Shown here one piece after another: positions 55,711 through 64,000 of a DNA stretch of 64,000 nt. The notes under the pieces are model-generated. The model did not search any database. It was given only the letters and a program-made list of their open reading frames with translations, and was not told where the DNA came from. Made by a program: the position numbers and the translations under genes. The DNA lies in the NCBI RefSeq assembly GCF_012034175.1, contig NZ_JAATEJ010000009.1:62001-126000 (forward strand). The letters are read 5' to 3'. How positions within the stretch are numbered: the first letter of the stretch is position 1; every line of letters starts with the position of its first letter. The stretch is from Actinacidiphila epipremni (GTDB taxonomy: Bacteria > Actinomycetota > Actinomycetes > Streptomycetales > Streptomycetaceae).

Positions 55711-56187
55711 ATGGGGGAGATCGAGTACGTACGTGGGGACGCGACGACGCCGCTGGGCAAAGGCCCGAAGGTGATCGCGCACGTCTGCAATGACCGGGGC
55801 GGGTGGGGCAAGGGCTTTGTGCTTGCGCTCTCGCGGCGGTGGCCCGAGCCGGAGGCGGCGTTTCGCCGGTGGTATCGGGGGCGGGCGGGGAACGACTTCG
55901 GGCTGGGGGCCGTGCAGGTCGTCCGGGTGGGTGAGCGGTTGTGGGTCGCCAACATGGTCGGCCAGCGCGGCATACGTACCGGCAGCAAGGGCGTGCCCGT
56001 GCGCTATGACGCGATCGACACCGCCCTGGGCACGGTCGCCGCGCGGGCGGCGGAGCTGGGGGCGTCCGTCCACATGCCGCGCATCGGCTGCGGGCTGGCC
56101 GGCGGGAAGTGGGGGCGGGTCGAGCCCCTGATCGCCGGGCGGCTCGTCGCGGCGGGGGTGGCCGTGACCGTCTACGACCACGGCTGA
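55711..56187 (+). CDS. Macrodomain protein (TARG1/ALC1-like)
   Basis: 158 residues from ATG 55711, forming one complete macrodomain: IEYVRGDATTPLGKGPKVIAH at the N-terminus, HVCNDRGGWGKGFVLALSRRWPE for the ADP-ribose-binding loop 1, and HMPRIGCGLAGGKWGRVEPLI for loop 2. Such proteins bind ADP-ribose and many remove it from proteins or nucleic acids; the bacterial DarG antitoxin is related. No DarT-like toxin gene is adjacent, so an antitoxin role is not supported here. Confidence 0.9.
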   Translation: MGEIEYVRGDATTPLGKGPKVIAHVCNDRGGWGKGFVLALSRRWPEPEAAFRRWYRGRAGNDFGLGAVQVVRVGERLWVANMVGQRGIRTGSKGVPVRYDAIDTALGTVAARAAELGASVHMPRIGCGLAGGKWGRVEPLIAGRLVAAGVAVTVYDHG

Positions 56188-56250
56188 GGGCTGCCCACGG
56201 GTTCGTGTTCGGCAGGCGCACCGCTCCGGTCCGGGGGCGGACTCCACGCC

Positions 56251-56373
56251 GGGCCCGGGCCCGGGTCCGGGCGCGGGTCCGGGTCCGGGCGCGGGTCCGG
56301 GTCCGGGCGCGGGTCCGGGTCCGGGCGCGGGTCCGGGTCCGGGCGCGGGTCCGGGTCCGGGCGCGGGTCCGGG
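56251..56373 (+). repeat. Array of 21 GGG tracts at 6-bp period (18-bp tandem unit)
   Basis: The plus strand reads GGG-NNN without interruption from 56,251 to 56,373; the dominant 18-bp unit is GGGTCCGGGTCCGGGCGC. Every GGG is followed by exactly three bases, so up to five adjacent three-tier G-quadruplexes are possible. It lies between the 3' ends of the convergent macrodomain and flavoprotein genes and is not part of either. Confidence 0.9.
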
Positions 56374-56480
56374 TCCGGAGTCAGGTGCGGGTGCGGCGGG
56401 CCGCACGGACGGCCCGTCCTCCGGCGAGCCCACGCCGGACAGCCCGTCCACGGGCCCGTCCCCCGGCGCCCGGCGCCCCG

Positions 56481-57143
56481 TCACGCAAGCCCCTGTCCCC
56501 CCGGCGACCCCGTGCCGGGTGCCCCGGCCTCCGCCAGCTCGCCGCCGAGCAGCGCGTCCTCCGGCGCCGGCGCACCCGCGCCGGGCGCCTCCTCCTCGCC
56601 CAGAATCGCTTCGAGCCACCCCACGATCACCTCCGCCGCCTCGTCCGGTGGCGCCAGTTTCAGGCCCATCGCGTTCTCCCGCCGCCACAGCTCGAAGACC
56701 GGGCCCTCCCTGGGCTCGACCACGGTGTGGCCGTCCTCGCGCAGGGTGGCGACGTGGCGGCGGATGGGCGGCTTGCGCCACATCACCTGGTTCATGCTCG
56801 GGAAGAAGAGGACCGGCCGCGGGCAGGCCAGGATCGCGGTCTGGGCGGGGGTGGAGGCCAGGCCCAGGGCCGCCGCGGCGAGGGTGTGGGCGGTGGCGGG
56901 CAGGACGACGACGCCGAGGGAACGGCGGGCGAATTCGGTCGGGTTGAGGTCCGCCGCGTCGCTCGCGTAGACCTCGTCGGCGTACCAGGCGACGGCCTCG
57001 CGCCGTACGAACCGCTCGGCGCTGTGCGTGAGCAGCACCCGTAGCGGCAGGTCGATCTCCTGGCGGAGCCACGAGAGGTATCCGGTGGTGGCCATCGCCG
57101 CGCTCGATCCGCTGACGATGACGGAAAGCGCGTCATCTCTCAT
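56481..57143 (-). CDS. HFCD-type flavoprotein (putative cysteine decarboxylase)
   Basis: 220 residues from ATG 57143. The flavodoxin-like fold shows GSSAAMATTGYL (11-22), PATAHTL (82-88, equivalent to PASANT) and PSMNQVMW (115-122, the PXMNxxMW motif). These are hallmarks of flavoproteins such as EpiD and MrsD that decarboxylate a C-terminal cysteine of a peptide. The usual catalytic histidine about 14 residues before PASANT is not seen (NPTEF there), so activity may differ. The Gly/Ala/Pro-rich tail (about 180-220) is an extension. It is divergent from the small Cys-ending precursor-like ORF, which fits a peptide-modifying role. Confidence 0.8.
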   Translation of the reverse strand: MRDDALSVIVSGSSAAMATTGYLSWLRQEIDLPLRVLLTHSAERFVRREAVAWYADEVYASDAADLNPTEFARRSLGVVVLPATAHTLAAAALGLASTPAQTAILACPRPVLFFPSMNQVMWRKPPIRRHVATLREDGHTVVEPREGPVFELWRRENAMGLKLAPPDEAAEVIVGWLEAILGEEEAPGAGAPAPEDALLGGELAEAGAPGTGSPGGQGLA

Positions 57144-57305
57144 GGCGGGCAGGATGCCAAGCCGGCGGCGCCCGGCGACATGGGGGCGCGGCCCCAGTTG
57201 GGGCGCGGCGGGCGCGGCCGAGTATGGGGGCGGAACACCCATGACTCCCGCCCCCGCCGGCTGCCACTTTTGCGGTCAGCCGGCATCTGCCGACCCGCCG
57301 GCGCG

Positions 57306-57313
57306 AGGAGGTG
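57306..57313 (+). promoter_or_regulatory. Perfect ribosome-binding site of the precursor ORF
   Basis: AGGAGGTG matches the 16S anti-Shine-Dalgarno fully and lies 6 bases before ATG 57320. It is the strongest ribosome site I see in the window and is the main reason to accept the tiny ORF as a real gene. Confidence 0.8.
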
Positions 57314-57319
57314 AAGGTC

Positions 57320-57400
57320 ATGAAGAAGATCACCGTGCGCAAGTCGGGCTCCATCAAGCTCACCTCGTCCGCCCCGCTGTACTGCACCGACTGCTGCTGA
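57320..57400 (+). CDS. 26-aa Cys-rich peptide, candidate RiPP precursor
   Basis: The ORF begins MKKITVRKSGSIKL and ends APLYCTDCC, with three cysteines in the last five residues and a C-terminal Cys. The basic N-terminal half resembles a leader, and the Thr-Ser-Ser-Ala-Pro stretch may precede the core. Support comes from a perfect AGGAGGTG ribosome site, a strong hairpin starting 7 bases after the stop, and neighbours typical of peptide maturation: a flavoprotein that could act on a C-terminal Cys, and a PqqD-like/M50 fusion. No lanthipeptide dehydratase, YcaO or radical-SAM gene is nearby, so it does not fit a class I know. Confidence 0.75.
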   Translation: MKKITVRKSGSIKLTSSAPLYCTDCC

Positions 57401-57407
57401 GTCGCAG

Positions 57408-57442
57408 GGGCCGCCCCTGCGCACCCGGCGCAGGGGCGGCCC
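57408..57442 (+). terminator. Strong hairpin between precursor and biosynthetic genes
   Basis: GGGCCGCCCCTGCG and its exact complement CGCAGGGGCGGCCC form a 14-bp stem with a 7-base loop. It should terminate most transcripts, or protect the precursor mRNA, giving much more peptide message than enzyme message, as is common in RiPP operons. Confidence 0.8.
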
Positions 57443-57491
57443 GCCCCCGGGGCGCCCGCCCCCCGACCCGAGCCCGTACGGACGGAGGCCC

Positions 57492-58763
57492 ATGTCCCCC
57501 GCGTCCCCCACCTCCCCTGCCTCTCCCGCCTCCCCCGTTCCCCCCGCCTCCAGTGCCCGCGTCCGCTTCCACCCCCTGACCTTCGTCGAGGAGCGCGACG
57601 GCATCACCGTCGGCCGCGCCGACATCGAGTCGTACGCGCTGCTGCCCGAGGACGGTGTGGCCCTGCTGCGCCGGCTCGCGGACGGGGCGACGGCGGACGA
57701 GGCGGCGGCCTGGTACGCGCGCACCTTCGGGGAGCCGGTGGACGTCGCGGACTTCCTCGACACGCTGCGCGAGCTGGGGTTCGTGCGGGAGGCCGGGGAG
57801 GCGGCGGCCGAGCCGCCGAAGGTCCGCCTGCAGCGGCTCGGGCGGATCGCGTTCTCGCCCGTCCTGTGGCTGCTGTACGCGGCGCTGATCGCCGCCGCGG
57901 GCGTGGAGATGGTCCGGCACGCCGAGCTGCGCCCGCACGCCCACAACGTCTTCTTCACCTCCTCGCTGATCGCCGTCCAGGTCGGGGTGGCGCTGTTCCA
58001 GTCGCCGGCCGTGCTGTGGCACGAGTGGTTCCATCTGCTGGCCGCCCGCCGGCTGGGGCTCGCGTCCCGGATGAGCCTCGGGCGGCGCTTCTACTACGTC
58101 GTGGTGGAGACCCAGCTGGACGGGCTGCGCGGGGTGCCGCCGCGGCGCCGCTACCTGCCGATGCTCTCCGGCATGCTCGCCGATCTGCTGCTCTTCTCCG
58201 CCCTCGTGCTCGTCGCCGCCGCCGGCCTGCCCGGCGGTCTCGCGCTGCCGGGGCGCCTCGCGCTGGCCGTGGCGTACACCGTGCTGCTGCGGCTCGCCTG
58301 GCAGTTCTACGTGTTCCTGCGCACCGACCTGTATTACGTGATCACGAACGCGCTCGGCTGCACCGATCCGCACGCCGCGACCCGCGCCTACCTGCGCGAG
58401 CGGTTCCGGCGGCTGCCGTGGGTGGGGCCGTCGGACTGGCGCACCGGGGACTGGGCGCCCAGGGACCGGGCGGTGGCGCCGTGGTTCGCGCTGGTCACGG
58501 TCGGCGGGGTGACCGCGATGCTGGTGACCGTCTCGCTGTGGACCGCGCCGCTGATCTGGCAGTTCGCCCGGCATGTGGGCTCGGGGCTGGCCGGCGGGGG
58601 GACGGGGGACGCGCACTTCTGGGACTCGGTCGGCTCGCTGCTGCTGCTGAGCCTGGAGATCGTCGTACTGCCGCTCTACGCGGGCCGTAAGCGCAAGCGC
58701 GCCGCCGCCGGCACCGCGCCCCTGACCACCACCACCGCATCACCCGTGGAGGAGTCCCAATGA
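57492..58763 (+). CDS. PqqD/RRE-M50 metalloprotease fusion (membrane)
   Basis: 423 residues from ATG 57492, GGAGG 3 bases upstream. Residues about 30-102 match the PqqD-like RiPP recognition fold (ALLPEDGVALLRRLADGATADEAAAWYARTFGEPVDVADFL split across it). Then come six or so transmembrane helices from about 120, with the zinc motif HEWFH at 177-181 in LWHEWFHLLAARRLG and the later RTDLYYVITN (about 278) that supplies the aspartate seen in peptide zinc metalloproteases of the YydH type. It could bind the leader peptide with its RRE and cut it in the membrane. The next gene starts within its stop (ATGA 58,760-58,763). Confidence 0.8.
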   Translation: MSPASPTSPASPASPVPPASSARVRFHPLTFVEERDGITVGRADIESYALLPEDGVALLRRLADGATADEAAAWYARTFGEPVDVADFLDTLRELGFVREAGEAAAEPPKVRLQRLGRIAFSPVLWLLYAALIAAAGVEMVRHAELRPHAHNVFFTSSLIAVQVGVALFQSPAVLWHEWFHLLAARRLGLASRMSLGRRFYYVVVETQLDGLRGVPPRRRYLPMLSGMLADLLLFSALVLVAAAGLPGGLALPGRLALAVAYTVLLRLAWQFYVFLRTDLYYVITNALGCTDPHAATRAYLRERFRRLPWVGPSDWRTGDWAPRDRAVAPWFALVTVGGVTAMLVTVSLWTAPLIWQFARHVGSGLAGGGTGDAHFWDSVGSLLLLSLEIVVLPLYAGRKRKRAAAGTAPLTTTTASPVEESQ

Positions 58764-60934
58764 CCGCACACGAGTGGCGGACCGGTACGACTCCGGCCGC
58801 CGAACAGCAGCGCGAGCCCGCCGAGTCGGCCGGGGCAGCCGGGGCAGCCGGGGCGAACGGAGCGACCGGGTCCGCGGACCGCGCCGCCTTCGTCGTGGAC
58901 TGCCACCGCGGGCTGCGCGGCCCCTACACCGGGCTGGGCAGCCTGCTGCGCGAGGTGGTTCCGCTCGCCATCAAGGCGCAGCCCGGCATCACCGACCGGC
59001 ACGTCACCGAAATCCTGTCCGTCGCACCGGAGTTGCGGCCGGCCATCGGGGTCGGGCCGGAGACGCTGACGTCGCTGGCGGCCCCGGAGGAGCGGACCCG
59101 GATCTATCCGGCCAACCGCACCCGCAGGTTGGCGCACGGAGCCGTCGAACTCCTCGCGGAATACGCCGCGGTGGCCGGTGGTGGGCCGCTGCGGCTGGTC
59201 TTCGAGCGCGTGGAGCACGCCGACTACACCGACCAGGAGTTCCTGGCCATCCTGCTGCGCCGGGCCCGTCCCGACCGGATACGCGTCACGGTCGCGACCG
59301 GTGGTGGCGGGGGCCTCGTCGACGAACTCGCCGCCGCGCTGGGCCGGTACGCCCGCCGTACGCCGCCCGCCGCGGGTACGGACGCCGGCGGTACGGACGC
59401 CGCGGGTACGGACGCCGGCGGGCGCACCCAGGAGGAGCTGCTGCACGCCTTCGTCGCCGCCGACGGTACGTCCCAGGACCCGGCGGAGACCGCCGCGTAC
59501 GAGCAGGCCGACCCGGCGCTGCGCGCCACCCTGCACGACCGGCGCGCAGCCGAACTGCTCGCCCGGGACGAACTGACGCTGGGCCTGGGCGCGATCCCCT
59601 ACCACCTGGAGCGGGGCAGCGACCCGGCCGGTGCGGGCGCGGACGCGCTCTACGAGGCGGCGCGGCACTGCGGCGCCATGGGCTTCTACCACTCGGTCAT
59701 CGACTTCGGCACCCGCGGCCGGGACCTGACCGACCCCGAGACGCAGATGGAGCGCTTCTGGCACCTGAGCACCAGGGCGAGTTCGGCGATGGTGGTGCTC
59801 GGGCAGACCGTGGAGGCCGAGCCCACCTACATCGACCTGCGGGCCCGCTACGACCTCCCGGAGCTCCAGCTGTCCACCGGGTACGCGCTCGCCATGCTCT
59901 ACACCCGTTTCCACCCGGCGGAGTTGCGCGACCACCACCTGGCGCGCGCGTACATCAACAACTCCATCGCCATCGCCTCGCTGCTGACCGACCCCGAACA
60001 GCGGGCCTTCCACTCGGTCTTCCAGAAGAACGGGCTCGCGCTCATCGAGATGCGCACCGGGCGGATCGAGCGGGCGCTCCGCCTGGTCAGCGACGGCATC
60101 GCCTACCTGGACCGCGAACTGCCGGGCGAGAAGCACCGGTTGCACCGGTCGGTGCTCGTGCACAACCGCGGCAAGGTCTACCTGGCGATGGGCCGGCTGG
60201 AGGAAGCGCTCGCCGATCTCAGCAAGGTGATCGAGCTCGACCCGAACTACGCCGACTACTACTTCGACCGCGCCGACGTCCGGCGGCGGCTGGGCGATCT
60301 GGCCGGTGCGGTGGCCGACTGCGACACCGCGATCAGCCTGTCGCCGCCGTTCTACGAACTCCACTACAACCGGGGGGACATCAAGGCCGAGGCCGGCGAC
60401 GTCGAGGGAGCGCTCGCGGACTTCGGCTACGTGGTGGAGCTGGAGCCCGACCAACTCGACGCCCGCGTCAACCTGGTGGGCCTGCTCATGGAGGGCGGTG
60501 ACCCGGCGGCGGCCGAGCCGCACGTCGAGGAGGGCCTGGTCCTGCACCCGGGCGACCCGCGGCTGCTGCACCTGCGGGGCGAACTCGCCCTGGAGCGCGG
60601 GGATATGGGCGCCGCCCGGCAGGACTTCGACGCGGCGCTGCGCGCCGACCCCGGGCTCGTGCCCGCGCTCGCCAGCCGGGCCGCCCTCGCGCACGAGGCG
60701 GGCGACCACGGCGCCGCGCTCGCCGATCTGACCGCCGCGCTGGAGGCCGACCCGGACAACGGCGACCTGCTCTACAACCGCGGCTACGTCCACGAGGCCG
60801 CCGGGCGCTGGGCCGAGGCCGTGGAGGACTACACGCGGGCCCTCGAACTCGCCGGCGACGACGACCGGGACGAGCTCCTGAACCGGCGGGCGGTGGCGCG
60901 CTCGGCCCTGATGGGTACGGCGGGTGCGCAGTGA
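58760..60934 (+). CDS. TPR protein of the peptide cluster
   Basis: 724 residues from ATG 58760 with GGAGGA 6-11 bases upstream, overlapping the preceding stop. An N-terminal domain (about 40-180, VDCHRGLRGPYTGLGSLLREVVPLAI onward) resembles the STAND-like front modules of actinomycete TPR proteins but has no P-loop. A low-complexity Gly/Thr/Asp/Ala run (about 202-222) follows, then helices and at least six TPR units from about 465 (HNRGKVYLAMGRLEEALADL; YNRGDIKAEAGDVEGALADF; YNRGYVHEAAGRWAEAVEDY). It is probably a scaffold for the modifying enzymes. It is coupled to the M50 and flavin reductase genes. Confidence 0.8.
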   Translation: MTAHEWRTGTTPAAEQQREPAESAGAAGAAGANGATGSADRAAFVVDCHRGLRGPYTGLGSLLREVVPLAIKAQPGITDRHVTEILSVAPELRPAIGVGPETLTSLAAPEERTRIYPANRTRRLAHGAVELLAEYAAVAGGGPLRLVFERVEHADYTDQEFLAILLRRARPDRIRVTVATGGGGGLVDELAAALGRYARRTPPAAGTDAGGTDAAGTDAGGRTQEELLHAFVAADGTSQDPAETAAYEQADPALRATLHDRRAAELLARDELTLGLGAIPYHLERGSDPAGAGADALYEAARHCGAMGFYHSVIDFGTRGRDLTDPETQMERFWHLSTRASSAMVVLGQTVEAEPTYIDLRARYDLPELQLSTGYALAMLYTRFHPAELRDHHLARAYINNSIAIASLLTDPEQRAFHSVFQKNGLALIEMRTGRIERALRLVSDGIAYLDRELPGEKHRLHRSVLVHNRGKVYLAMGRLEEALADLSKVIELDPNYADYYFDRADVRRRLGDLAGAVADCDTAISLSPPFYELHYNRGDIKAEAGDVEGALADFGYVVELEPDQLDARVNLVGLLMEGGDPAAAEPHVEEGLVLHPGDPRLLHLRGELALERGDMGAARQDFDAALRADPGLVPALASRAALAHEAGDHGAALADLTAALEADPDNGDLLYNRGYVHEAAGRWAEAVEDYTRALELAGDDDRDELLNRRAVARSALMGTAGAQ

Positions 60935-61446
60935 CCGCACTCGCCCCGGGGGCCGCGGAGGTCCCCGGGGCGGTGGGCGGGCAGGAGTTGCGGCAGCTCA
61001 TGCGGCGGTGGGCCACGGGGGCGGCGGTCGTGACCGGCGGCAGCCCGGCCGAGCCGGTCGGCTGCACGGTCAACGCCCTCACCTCCGTCTCCCTCGACCC
61101 GCCGCTGCTGCTGATCTCGCTCGCGTCGAGCAGCAACACCCTTGCCGGCGTGCTGCGTCACGGCAGCTTCGCCGTCAACGTCCTGGCGTGGCGGCAGCGG
61201 TGGCTCGCGAGCCGCTTCGCCGCCGTCGGCGACCGCTTCGCCGGCGTCGACTACCGGCTCGTGCACGGCGTGCCCGTGCTCACCGGTACGGTCGCCGCCG
61301 CGGTGTGCCGCGTGGTGCGGACCGTCACCGTCGCCGACCACGTCCTCGTCCTCGGCTCGCCGCACTGGTCGCGCCGGGCCGAGGACGCGGCGCCGGTGGT
61401 CCTGCTGGACGGGGAGTACGGGACGGCGGGTCCCGGCCGCGCGTGA
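60931..61446 (+). CDS. Flavin reductase-like protein
   Basis: 171 residues from GTG 60931, overlapping the TPR stop (GTGA). The split-barrel FMN-binding fold is evident: LRQLMRRWATGAAVVTGG, NALTSVSLDPPLLLISLA (flavin phosphate contact) and GSFAVNVLAWRQRWLASRFA. Such proteins use NAD(P)H to reduce flavin for a partner enzyme. In this operon the obvious flavin user is the divergent HFCD-type flavoprotein, though those enzymes normally do not need external reduction, so an unseen oxygenase or a direct reductive step is possible. Confidence 0.88.
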   Translation: MTALAPGAAEVPGAVGGQELRQLMRRWATGAAVVTGGSPAEPVGCTVNALTSVSLDPPLLLISLASSSNTLAGVLRHGSFAVNVLAWRQRWLASRFAAVGDRFAGVDYRLVHGVPVLTGTVAAAVCRVVRTVTVADHVLVLGSPHWSRRAEDAAPVVLLDGEYGTAGPGRA

Positions 61447-61561: not shown

Positions 61562-64000
61562 TCAGTCCGCCGCGCCGCCCTCGACGACGTACGCGCGCAG
61601 CGCCGTGCGGTCCGGCTGGCCGGTCTTGGCGATGAGGCTGGCCACGTGCTTCTCCACCGTGCGGGGGGAGATGAACAACTGCGCCGCGATGCTGCGGTTG
61701 TCGGGGCGGTCGGTGAGCAGTTGCAGCACCTCGAACTCCCGCTCCGTGACGCCGAGTACGCGCAGGGCGCGCGGGATGTGGGCGACGTTGCGGCGGTGCG
61801 GCACGACGACGCCGCTGCCGCGCAGCATCGTCCGGCAGGCACCGGCCGGCGCCGGCACCCCGCCGAGGCGGAAGAACTCCTCGGCCCTGCGGAGCCAGTT
61901 GACCGGATCGCCCCAGTGGTCGGCGCGGGCCGCCTCGGCCACCAGGCGGAGTCCCAGGTGGAGGGCGAGCGGATACGGCTCCGCGAGCCGGCCGGCCTCG
62001 GCGACGGCGCTCGCGGCCTGTTCCCCGCGGCCCTGGCGTCCCCACGCGACCGCGCGGGCGAGCGTGTCGAAGGAGGCGTTCCACCGCAGCCGGAACGCCC
62101 CGGTGCGCAGGTGCGGCGGTACCCGCCCGCCGGCGGTCGCCGGGAGCGGCCGGCCCGCGGGGTCGGTCCGCGCGCCGGCCGGGGGCGCGGTGGGGGCGCC
62201 GGCCGAGGCGCCGGGGGCGGAGTCGCGGTCGGAGCCGCGGTCGAGGTGGCGGCCGGAGTCGCGGGCGAAGTCGCGGCCGGAGCCCCGGTCCAGGTCGCGG
62301 TCAGGGTCGCGGTCAGGGTCGCGGTCAGGGTCACGCTCAGGGTGGCGGTCCAGGTCCCGGGCGGAGTCCCGGGCGGGGTGGCCGTCCGGGTGGCGGTGCG
62401 GATCGTGGGCGGGGGTGTCGTCGAGCGCGGTGAGCAGCCGGAACAGGCCGTACTGCCCCACCAGCGCGTGCGGCGCGGACGTGCCGGCGTCGAGGCGGAC
62501 CGCCTCGGTCATCAGGGCGGCGGCGCGGTCGCGGTCCTCCTCCAGCAGGGCGCACACCACCTCCGCCAGGCCCAGCACGAAGGAGCGGGTGAGCGCGGAT
62601 TCACCCGGACATCGAAGCAACTCCTTTTTCAGCCGGTCGAGTTCGGCCCGCCGCCCCTGGTGGCCCGCGCACACCGCCCGTACCGCGAGCAGATAGCACC
62701 CGCTCTCTCCCAGCCCCAGCCGCTCCGCCTCCGCCGCCCCGTCCCGGGCGAGGCGGTCGGCGGCCGGGTATTCGCCGCGCAGGGCGTGGTCCAAGGCGAG
62801 CCGGCTGCGCACCAGATGGCCGACGAAGGCCGCGCCGAGCCCGTCGGCCTGGCGGCCGACGTCGAGCAGCGCGCTGCGCTCACCGCCGGCCAGCCACTCG
62901 TCCTCGGCCAGCAAGTACGTTGCCTCCAGCAGGCGTTGGGGAAGGCGGTGGGCGAGCGCCGCGGTCCGGGCGCGGACCAGCCAGTAGGACGCCTCGGCCG
63001 AGCCGCGGCGCAGCGCGACCGCGCCGCGTACCGTCAGCGCACGGCAGCGTATGTCGGGCGGGGCCGTACGCCCCGCGCGGGCGACGGCGCGGGTGGCGTG
63101 CGACTCCGCCGCGCGGGCGGAGTCCGCGAGCACCCAGGCGGCGACGGCGTCCACGGCCGCCGCGTCCTGGTCGGCGACGCCGGGTCCGAGCGCCATCTGC
63201 GCCAGCCGCACCTGGCGGCGCCCCTCGGCGCGGCGCCCCGCGGCTGCCGCGAGCCGGGCGAGCCGTACGTGCAGACCGGCGACCCGGCCGGGGCCGGCCT
63301 CCGCGCCGTGGAAGGTCTGCGGGACGTCGGTGAACTCCAGGCCGCGGCCGGCCCGGCCGGCCTCGGCGAGCGCGGTGAGCAGCGCGTCCAGCAGGTCCGC
63401 GCGCAGCGTGGGGTCGGCGGCGGTGCCGGTGGGCGTACCGGCCCGCTCCAGCAGGGTCCAGGCGCGTTCCAGCAGGTCCACCGCGGCGCCGGCGTGCCCG
63501 GCGCCCAGGGCCCGGCGGCCGGCCCTGCCGTACAGGGCGGCGGCGCTCAGCGGCTCCTCGGCGGCGGCCCGTAGTCCGGCGGCGAACTCGCACCAGGCGT
63601 CGGGCAGTCCGGGGTGCAGCTGCGCCACCGCGTCGGCGGCCCGCCGGGCAAGGGCCGTGCGGTGCGCGGGGGCGAGCTGGCTGAGCTGCGCGGTGCGGGT
63701 GATGGGGTCGCGGAAGCCGTACCAGTCGGCGGTCGGGCCGCGTCCCTCCAGCAGTTCGGCCGCCAGGGCCGCGCGCAACCGGTCGAGCAGCTTGCGCTGG
63801 TTGACGCCGAGCACGCGTTGCAGCACCGACAGCGGGAAGCGCTCGCCGATCACCGCGGCGGTGCGCAGCATCTGGTCGATCTCGGGCCCGAGTTGGCGTA
63901 CGTGCCGGGTGATCCGGTGCCCCACGGCGAAGGGGATCTCCAGGCTCGGGCCGGGGTCAAAGCGGCAGCCGCCGGGCTCGACGACGAGGACGCCGGCGCC
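61562..64000 (-). CDS. LAL-type LuxR regulator, C-terminal part (5' end outside window)
   Basis: The frame is open to the last base of the window, so at least 812 residues are present and the start and ATPase P-loop lie beyond 64,000. The visible part includes the winged-helix region after the ATPase (LGPEIDQMLRTAAVIGERF), a long TPR-like solenoid, a charged low-complexity insert of repeated Asp-Arg-Asp-Pro units (about 62,225-62,400, with a 12-bp DNA repeat at 62,297-62,332), and the C-terminal LuxR HTH (VTEREFEVLQLLTDRPDNRSIAAQLFISPRTVEKHV split). It is convergent with the peptide operon and is its likely activator. Confidence 0.88.
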   Translation of the reverse strand, partial: GAGVLVVEPGGCRFDPGPSLEIPFAVGHRITRHVRQLGPEIDQMLRTAAVIGERFPLSVLQRVLGVNQRKLLDRLRAALAAELLEGRGPTADWYGFRDPITRTAQLSQLAPAHRTALARRAADAVAQLHPGLPDAWCEFAAGLRAAAEEPLSAAALYGRAGRRALGAGHAGAAVDLLERAWTLLERAGTPTGTAADPTLRADLLDALLTALAEAGRAGRGLEFTDVPQTFHGAEAGPGRVAGLHVRLARLAAAAGRRAEGRRQVRLAQMALGPGVADQDAAAVDAVAAWVLADSARAAESHATRAVARAGRTAPPDIRCRALTVRGAVALRRGSAEASYWLVRARTAALAHRLPQRLLEATYLLAEDEWLAGGERSALLDVGRQADGLGAAFVGHLVRSRLALDHALRGEYPAADRLARDGAAEAERLGLGESGCYLLAVRAVCAGHQGRRAELDRLKKELLRCPGESALTRSFVLGLAEVVCALLEEDRDRAAALMTEAVRLDAGTSAPHALVGQYGLFRLLTALDDTPAHDPHRHPDGHPARDSARDLDRHPERDPDRDPDRDPDRDLDRGSGRDFARDSGRHLDRGSDRDSAPGASAGAPTAPPAGARTDPAGRPLPATAGGRVPPHLRTGAFRLRWNASFDTLARAVAWGRQGRGEQAASAVAEAGRLAEPYPLALHLGLRLVAEAARADHWGDPVNWLRRAEEFFRLGGVPAPAGACRTMLRGSGVVVPHRRNVAHIPRALRVLGVTEREFEVLQLLTDRPDNRSIAAQLFISPRTVEKHVASLIAKTGQPDRTALRAYVVEGGAAD

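Follow-up and report, generated by a model that had tools for sequence, protein, structure and literature searches.

Proteases of the M50 family are known to cut leaders or products in the pearlins and epipeptides (PMC10885120), two groups of ribosomally synthesised and post-translationally modified peptides (RiPPs). In the epipeptides (EpeX/YydF; PMC10885120), the precursor is short and is accompanied by the membrane M50 protease EpeP, which is believed both to cleave and to export the product, and in the pearlins (TglA/TglG and TmoA/TmoG; PMC10885120) the M50 protease acts at the C-terminus of the modified peptide. Two further groups are relevant. The aminovinylcysteine (AviCys) RiPPs epidermin, mersacidin, thioviridamide, kintamdin and cacaoidin pair an HFCD-type flavoprotein with a C-terminal Cys, and the lasso-peptide B1 proteins FusB1 and TbiB1 have the fold of the RiPP recognition element (RRE). 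A locus with a likeness to each of these systems is found in the actinomycete Actinacidiphila epipremni, in a stretch of 64,000 nucleotides of contig NZ_JAATEJ010000009.1 (positions 62,001 to 126,000, referred to here as the window). It encodes a 26-residue precursor peptide, an M50 protease with an RRE at its N-terminus, a tetratricopeptide repeat (TPR) protein, a flavin reductase and an HFCD-type flavoprotein.

The locus also differs from each of these systems. Unlike the epipeptides, it has no radical SAM epimerase among the adjacent genes examined; its RRE is fused to the M50 protease, a TPR protein is the partner, and the core peptides contain Tyr and Cys. The RRE fusion sets it apart from the pearlins as well; no PEARL ligase was found near the locus, and the cores suggest a product other than a single amino acid. 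In contrast to the AviCys RiPPs, no dehydratase, YcaO protein or cyclase, kinase-like or other, is encoded in the genes that flank the cassette (unlinked genes lie outside this scope), and the flavoprotein does not keep the HFCD His and Asn; the ring partner here would need to be other than dehydroalanine or dehydrobutyrine. Finally, the lasso-peptide B1 proteins are not fused to a membrane protease, and their asparagine-synthetase-like cyclase has no counterpart at this locus. An earlier reading of the window from its sequence only had already noted that the class-defining enzymes of the known classes are missing, and none is present in the cassette or among the adjacent genes examined.

The locus is best read as a branch of an undescribed RiPP-like family, in which a leader would guide a maturation directed at Tyr and Cys and the M50 protease would remove the leader; the probability of this reading is put at about 0.5. 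A gene-encoded precursor, a conserved leader and a variable core are all present, as is a predicted RRE fold fused to a processing enzyme, and the class assignment, known here from genes and predicted folds, is RiPP-like. A search of an open-access library gave no description of the precursor family; preprints, supplements and subscription journals lay outside that search, and an earlier description there is possible.

The precursor and its family

The sequence-only reading had drawn attention to a tiny open reading frame (ORF) with a strong ribosome site and a YCTDCC end, and had proposed that it encodes a RiPP-like precursor. Two features are involved:

57305..57316, plus strand: ribosome-binding site, the GAGGAGGTGAAG region 5' of the precursor gene (direct sequence)
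57320..57400, plus strand: precursor peptide MKKITVRKSGSIKLTSSAPLYCTDCC (leader motif and position kept in more than 100 loci)

The ORF, as read from the sequence, is served by the strong Shine-Dalgarno (SD) sequence CGAGGAGGTGAA and specifies 26 amino acids (aa), with residues 2-15 (KKITVRKSGSIKLT) as the leader and SSAPLYCTDCC as the core. Homologous precursors are likewise preceded by a AGGAGGTGA-like SD. Among the 51 short ORFs of the window that have a strong SD, this is the only one with a CC end or a Y-x4-C end. The window precursor and its closest homologue are separated by two synonymous codon differences and no non-synonymous one, while the Micromonospora precursor has three conservative changes, all of them 5' of the core, and an identical PLYCTDCC. 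Judged from these comparisons, selection evidently acts on the peptide, and the ORF is a genuine gene. Its very small size is the one point in favour of a chance reading frame, an explanation that is ruled out by the homologues, in which leader, position and core are kept across three phyla; synonymous changes also predominate in the closest pairs, and the probability of a chance frame is practically nil.

The family was collected by searches with the M50 protein at several taxonomic levels. Within the genus, 23 of 35 genomes were positive; the order and the class were each represented by about 390 genomes; and species-level genomes of bacteria and archaea gave 80 loci. The more than 100 related loci come mostly from actinomycetes and represent 20-odd genera from three phyla or more; those of Ktedonobacter (Chloroflexota) and Cohnella (Bacillota) also carry a precursor with the family leader. 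In nearly all close-family loci, the M50-TPR pair is preceded on its 5' side by an ORF of 20-40 aa that consists of the leader KKIx[VI]RKxGx[VI][RK]LT and a variable core, and the 14-residue leader pattern is common to 114 of 115 leaders. The RiPP-like precursor proposed earlier is thus conserved, with a constant leader and a variable core, far beyond the genus, and neither loss of the short ORF nor a different, larger precursor is the rule in the homologous loci. The M50 and TPR genes are adjacent in every family locus. The basic cassette is precursor, M50 and TPR, and the flavin reductase accompanies all HFCD-type loci and part of the remainder.

Several genomes contain more than one cassette. 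The source genome has two others, at C19:44919-46106 (L063) and C19:139879-141141 (L032), whose cores are SAACQCPYSVAA and a tandem pair, VAAALYGSCGG.., and as many as four cassettes that look intact occur in some related genomes. One cassette (L182) lies between transposases on a linear Streptomyces plasmid (NZ_CP109482.1).

A separate, distant branch of the same PqqD-M50 superfamily (L045, L047, L048, and L172, L174, L176 and L178 within L172-L178) shows about 30% identity. There the PqqD-M50 gene overlaps an upstream ThiF-like gene, Pfam-supported as ThiF in L047, and neither a TPR protein nor a precursor of the window type, nor any other peptide substrate, was found in this branch.

Tyrosine and cysteine in the core peptides

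Tyr is present in all 72 distinct cores and Cys in 71 of them, where the local proteome composition would lead one to expect both residues in about 3%. Cores collected later repeat the pattern (both residues in 16 of 17), which brings the figure to 87 of 89 distinct cores, or 36 of 38 similarity clusters. The order and spacing of the two residues vary, with Y-x4-C, C-x2-Y and YC as frequent arrangements. The presence of Tyr and Cys in nearly every core, which had gone unnoticed in the earlier reading, is the strongest feature shared by the family and the strongest pointer to its product; it is a correlation and not proof of a bond. A C-terminal Cys, by comparison, was rejected as a general rule for the cores. 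Most of them end otherwise, and what had been taken for a defining feature is dispensable in the wider family.

In one branch (L092, L101, L138, L139, L142, L144 and L189, from Nocardia, Lentzea, Dactylosporangium and others), the cores are very rich in Cys; examples are YCYCNCCC and CYCYGCCCC.

Thiol and phenol groups could also serve as ligands, in which case the product would be a metal- or redox-binding mini-peptide, secreted after the M50 cut, and the flavin reductase would maintain thiols or iron in the reduced state. Cores of the YCYCNCCC kind and the flavin reductase of many loci would fit this explanation, which is nonetheless very unlikely: many cores have a single Cys and a single Tyr, their spacing is widely variable, and no metal-uptake genes recur among the clustered neighbours.

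The protease, the TPR protein and the flavin reductase

Three genes follow the precursor in this order, and each overlaps the next by 4 nt:

57492..58763, plus strand: RRE-M50 membrane metalloprotease, 423 aa (alignment, AlphaFold model, fold matches)
58760..60934, plus strand: TPR superhelix protein, 724 aa (Pfam TPR; model pLDDT 91)
60931..61446, plus strand: flavin reductase-like protein, 171 aa (PF01613, E 2e-30)

By Pfam, the first of these proteins shows PqqD only below the cut-off (16.7 against 23.4 bits), and M50 is not reported. Its AlphaFold model (pLDDT 87) has an RRE fold of three strands and three helices at residues 22-101 and a site-2-protease fold at residues 111-360, the latter with matches to RseP and SpoIVFB (Z 9.3). 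The RRE part aligns with leader-bound FusB1 at Z 10.7 (rmsd 1.9, 79 residues aligned), with TbiB1 at Z 10.3 and with PqqD at Z 7.6. Foldseek alone gives no E below 0.001, with FusB1 as its top match. HEWFH at residues 177-181 (HExxH) and D279 are invariant in 22 aligned sequences. The predicted membrane fold, the HExxH motif and the distal Asp support the identification of the protein as a fusion of an RRE with an M50 site-2 protease, and the earlier proposal of a PqqD/RRE-M50 fusion agrees with both modelled folds.

In the model of the TPR protein, the C-terminal two thirds form a TPR superhelix and are preceded by an N-terminal alpha/beta region, for which the fold-match lists are filled by TPR matches. 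These matches are generic and include the peptide receptors Rap and PlcR. Receptors of RRNPP-type peptide signalling combine TPRs with a DNA-binding or effector domain; Pfam finds no helix-turn-helix in the protein. A relationship to the LAL regulators as a degenerate STAND ATPase was considered and is not supported (hhalign probability 6.5%).

Clustering of the neighbouring genes of all loci shows that only the TPR protein, the M50 protease, the flavin reductase and regulators are shared across genera, with HFCD in one branch, and that no tailoring enzyme is conserved. The regulators are of the SARP and LAL types, which adjoin several sub-families; the other identified neighbours are ordinary and differ from locus to locus.

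The main rival explanation arises here. The peptide may be an unmodified signal: the RRE-M50 protease would cut the precursor to free a linear pheromone with Tyr and Cys as recognition residues, and its receptor would be the TPR protein or the LAL regulator. The lack of a universal tailoring enzyme, the Rap and PlcR matches (generic as they are), the several divergent cassettes per genome and the adjoining LAL and SARP regulators are all consistent with such a role. However, RREs are characteristic of RiPP enzymes, many loci include flavin enzymes, the HFCD protein tracks a C-terminal Cys, and the TPR protein, as a putative receptor, has no DNA-binding domain. Overall, signalling by an unmodified peptide is considered unlikely.

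The flavoprotein branch

On the other side of the precursor lies a flavoprotein gene, and a regulator gene faces the operon at the end of the window:

56481..57143 (or start 57242), minus strand: HFCD-type flavoprotein, divergent (PF02441, E 3e-15; MrsD E 9e-23)
61562..64000, continuing to about 65104 past the window end, minus strand: LAL-type LuxR regulator, 1180 aa (GerE domain; Walker A in the full gene)

With these additions, the flanking set of the sequence-only reading (divergent flavoprotein, M50 fusion, TPR protein and flavin reductase, the last three overlapping) is recovered as described. The start of the flavoprotein at 57143 gives MRDDALSV, and the N-terminus MR[DN]D is conserved in homologues; the longer start at 57242 is possible. 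The fold is of the HFCD type, with MrsD as the closest solved relative, and the PxMNxxMW substrate motif is kept as PSMNQVMW.

By tblastn, the flavoprotein is encoded in the window, L051, L071-L078, L080, L082 and L088, and then in L161, L163 and L170. These are exactly the loci whose core ends in Y-x4-C (16 of 16), and the claim that the flavoprotein goes with a C-terminal Cys therefore stands. The branch has 11 distinct cores, all with Tyr at -6 and Cys at -1, and the four residues between them are free. The HFCD loci group together in a single clade of the M50 tree (support 99), for which reason the Fisher p of 1e-11 for the association is not usable as a probability. In the sister clade, the core ends in Y-x5-C (YGTWP[FW]C) and HFCD is absent. 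The flavoprotein does not belong to the basic cassette, contrary to the earlier reading, since it is absent from most loci.

A homologue of the LAL-type regulator is present in 12 of the 13 HFCD loci found first, from five genera. Its gene, which is convergent to the operon and was missed in the earlier reading, is by this conservation evidently part of the HFCD-branch unit.

The intergenic hairpin and other features of the window

One further feature lies within the operon:

57408..57442, plus strand: hairpin between the precursor and protease genes (minimum free energy -45.8 kcal/mol)

This long GC hairpin, which the earlier reading had missed, has a z of -2.06 against dinucleotide shuffles. 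Hairpins recur in 111 homologous intergenic regions, with a median z of -3.7 against mononucleotide shuffles, a weaker control. Such recurrence at the same place would be expected of an attenuator that holds the precursor mRNA in excess, which the hairpin probably is.

Directly downstream of the flavoprotein gene, a GC-rich tandem repeat of GGGTCCGGGTCCGGGCGC units occupies 56250-56390, and a macro-domain-like ORF lies at 55711-56187 on the plus strand (weak DarG match, E 1e-5, below the cut-off). Within the regulator gene, at 62180-62400 on the minus strand, there is a low-complexity DRDPDRDPDRD insertion, which is unexpected in an otherwise conserved protein. An identity as defence or phage proteins was rejected: PADLOC gave no defence match for the four proteins tested, and PHROG gave a match to the TPR region only.

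Proposed maturation of the precursor

In the proposed mechanism, the precursor (20-40 aa) would be made in excess over the enzymes, aided by the hairpin 3' of its gene. Its leader would pair as a strand with the RRE at the N-terminus of the membrane protease, and the core would be altered at Tyr and Cys. In the HFCD branch, the flavoprotein would act on the C-terminal Cys, five residues past the invariant Tyr, and an enethiol might form, which could stack against the Tyr side or close a small ring at the Tyr or in its vicinity. Removal of the leader within the membrane, at the M50 site, would follow and release the product. The TPR protein may hold the peptide or the complex, the flavin reductase may supply reduced flavin or act on the peptide itself, and the LAL regulator would control the HFCD branch. 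The scheme is drawn from genetics and predicted folds; leader binding, cleavage, all chemistry, the order of steps and the TPR role are inferred. It is tempting to speculate that the family is a RiPP class of its own, which would join Tyr and Cys covalently without radical SAM enzyme, P450, YcaO protein or dehydratase; RRE-M50 and TPR would be the universal machine, and in the HFCD branch a re-purposed HFCD protein without the classical catalytic residues would close a six-residue ring from the invariant Tyr to the C-terminal Cys; such a proposal is tentative and rather doubtful.

Several observations weigh against leader-guided maturation at Tyr and Cys. Firstly, there is no known product. 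Secondly, the cassette has no universal tailoring enzyme, so that the modification would need the M50 protease, the TPR protein or an unlinked enzyme. Thirdly, two cores depart from the Tyr/Cys pattern, L122 (SQYWQ) and the plasmid-borne L182 (SAPFSHQPAIVPV), the latter possibly a decayed or divergent copy that has lost both residues. Fourthly, cores of the YGTWP[FW]C and YDWWC types end in Cys with no HFCD nearby, and the link between HFCD and Y-x4-C appears from the tree to be a single gain that was kept. Finally, in an alignment of 12 relatives, the catalytic His of the flavoprotein (HxE in MrsD, His67 in EpiD) is replaced by an invariant Pro68 in LNPTEF, and the PASANT Asn is variable: the window protein has His at this position, and relatives have Asn, Gly or Ala.

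In EpiD-type enzymes, the HxE His and the PASANT Asn are essential. Canonical Cys decarboxylation by this flavoprotein is plausible. The protein may instead bind a C-terminal Cys for another purpose, or it may rely on different residues. The oxidatively processed C-terminus of the sequence-only reading is a hypothesis, not supported in the form in which it was put forward. An account of the locus centred on the HFCD protein and the C-terminal Cys could draw on the strict link between the two, on MrsD as closest relative and on the retained PxMNxxMW motif. Against it stand the altered catalytic residues and the lack of a dehydratase or kinase-like cyclase partner, unlike thioviridamide and kintamdin (PMC9415263). 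It would also leave unexplained the Tyr at -6 in 11 of 11 branch cores, and it is regarded as improbable. A RiPP-like family with maturation directed at both Tyr and Cys is preferred.

Significance of the family

The family is widespread, with three to five small genes per locus and Tyr plus Cys as a chemical clue, and its cassettes are small enough for whole expression. It offers a defined test system for the role of the RRE-M50 fusion and for the residual capacity of an HFCD homologue that lacks the catalytic His.

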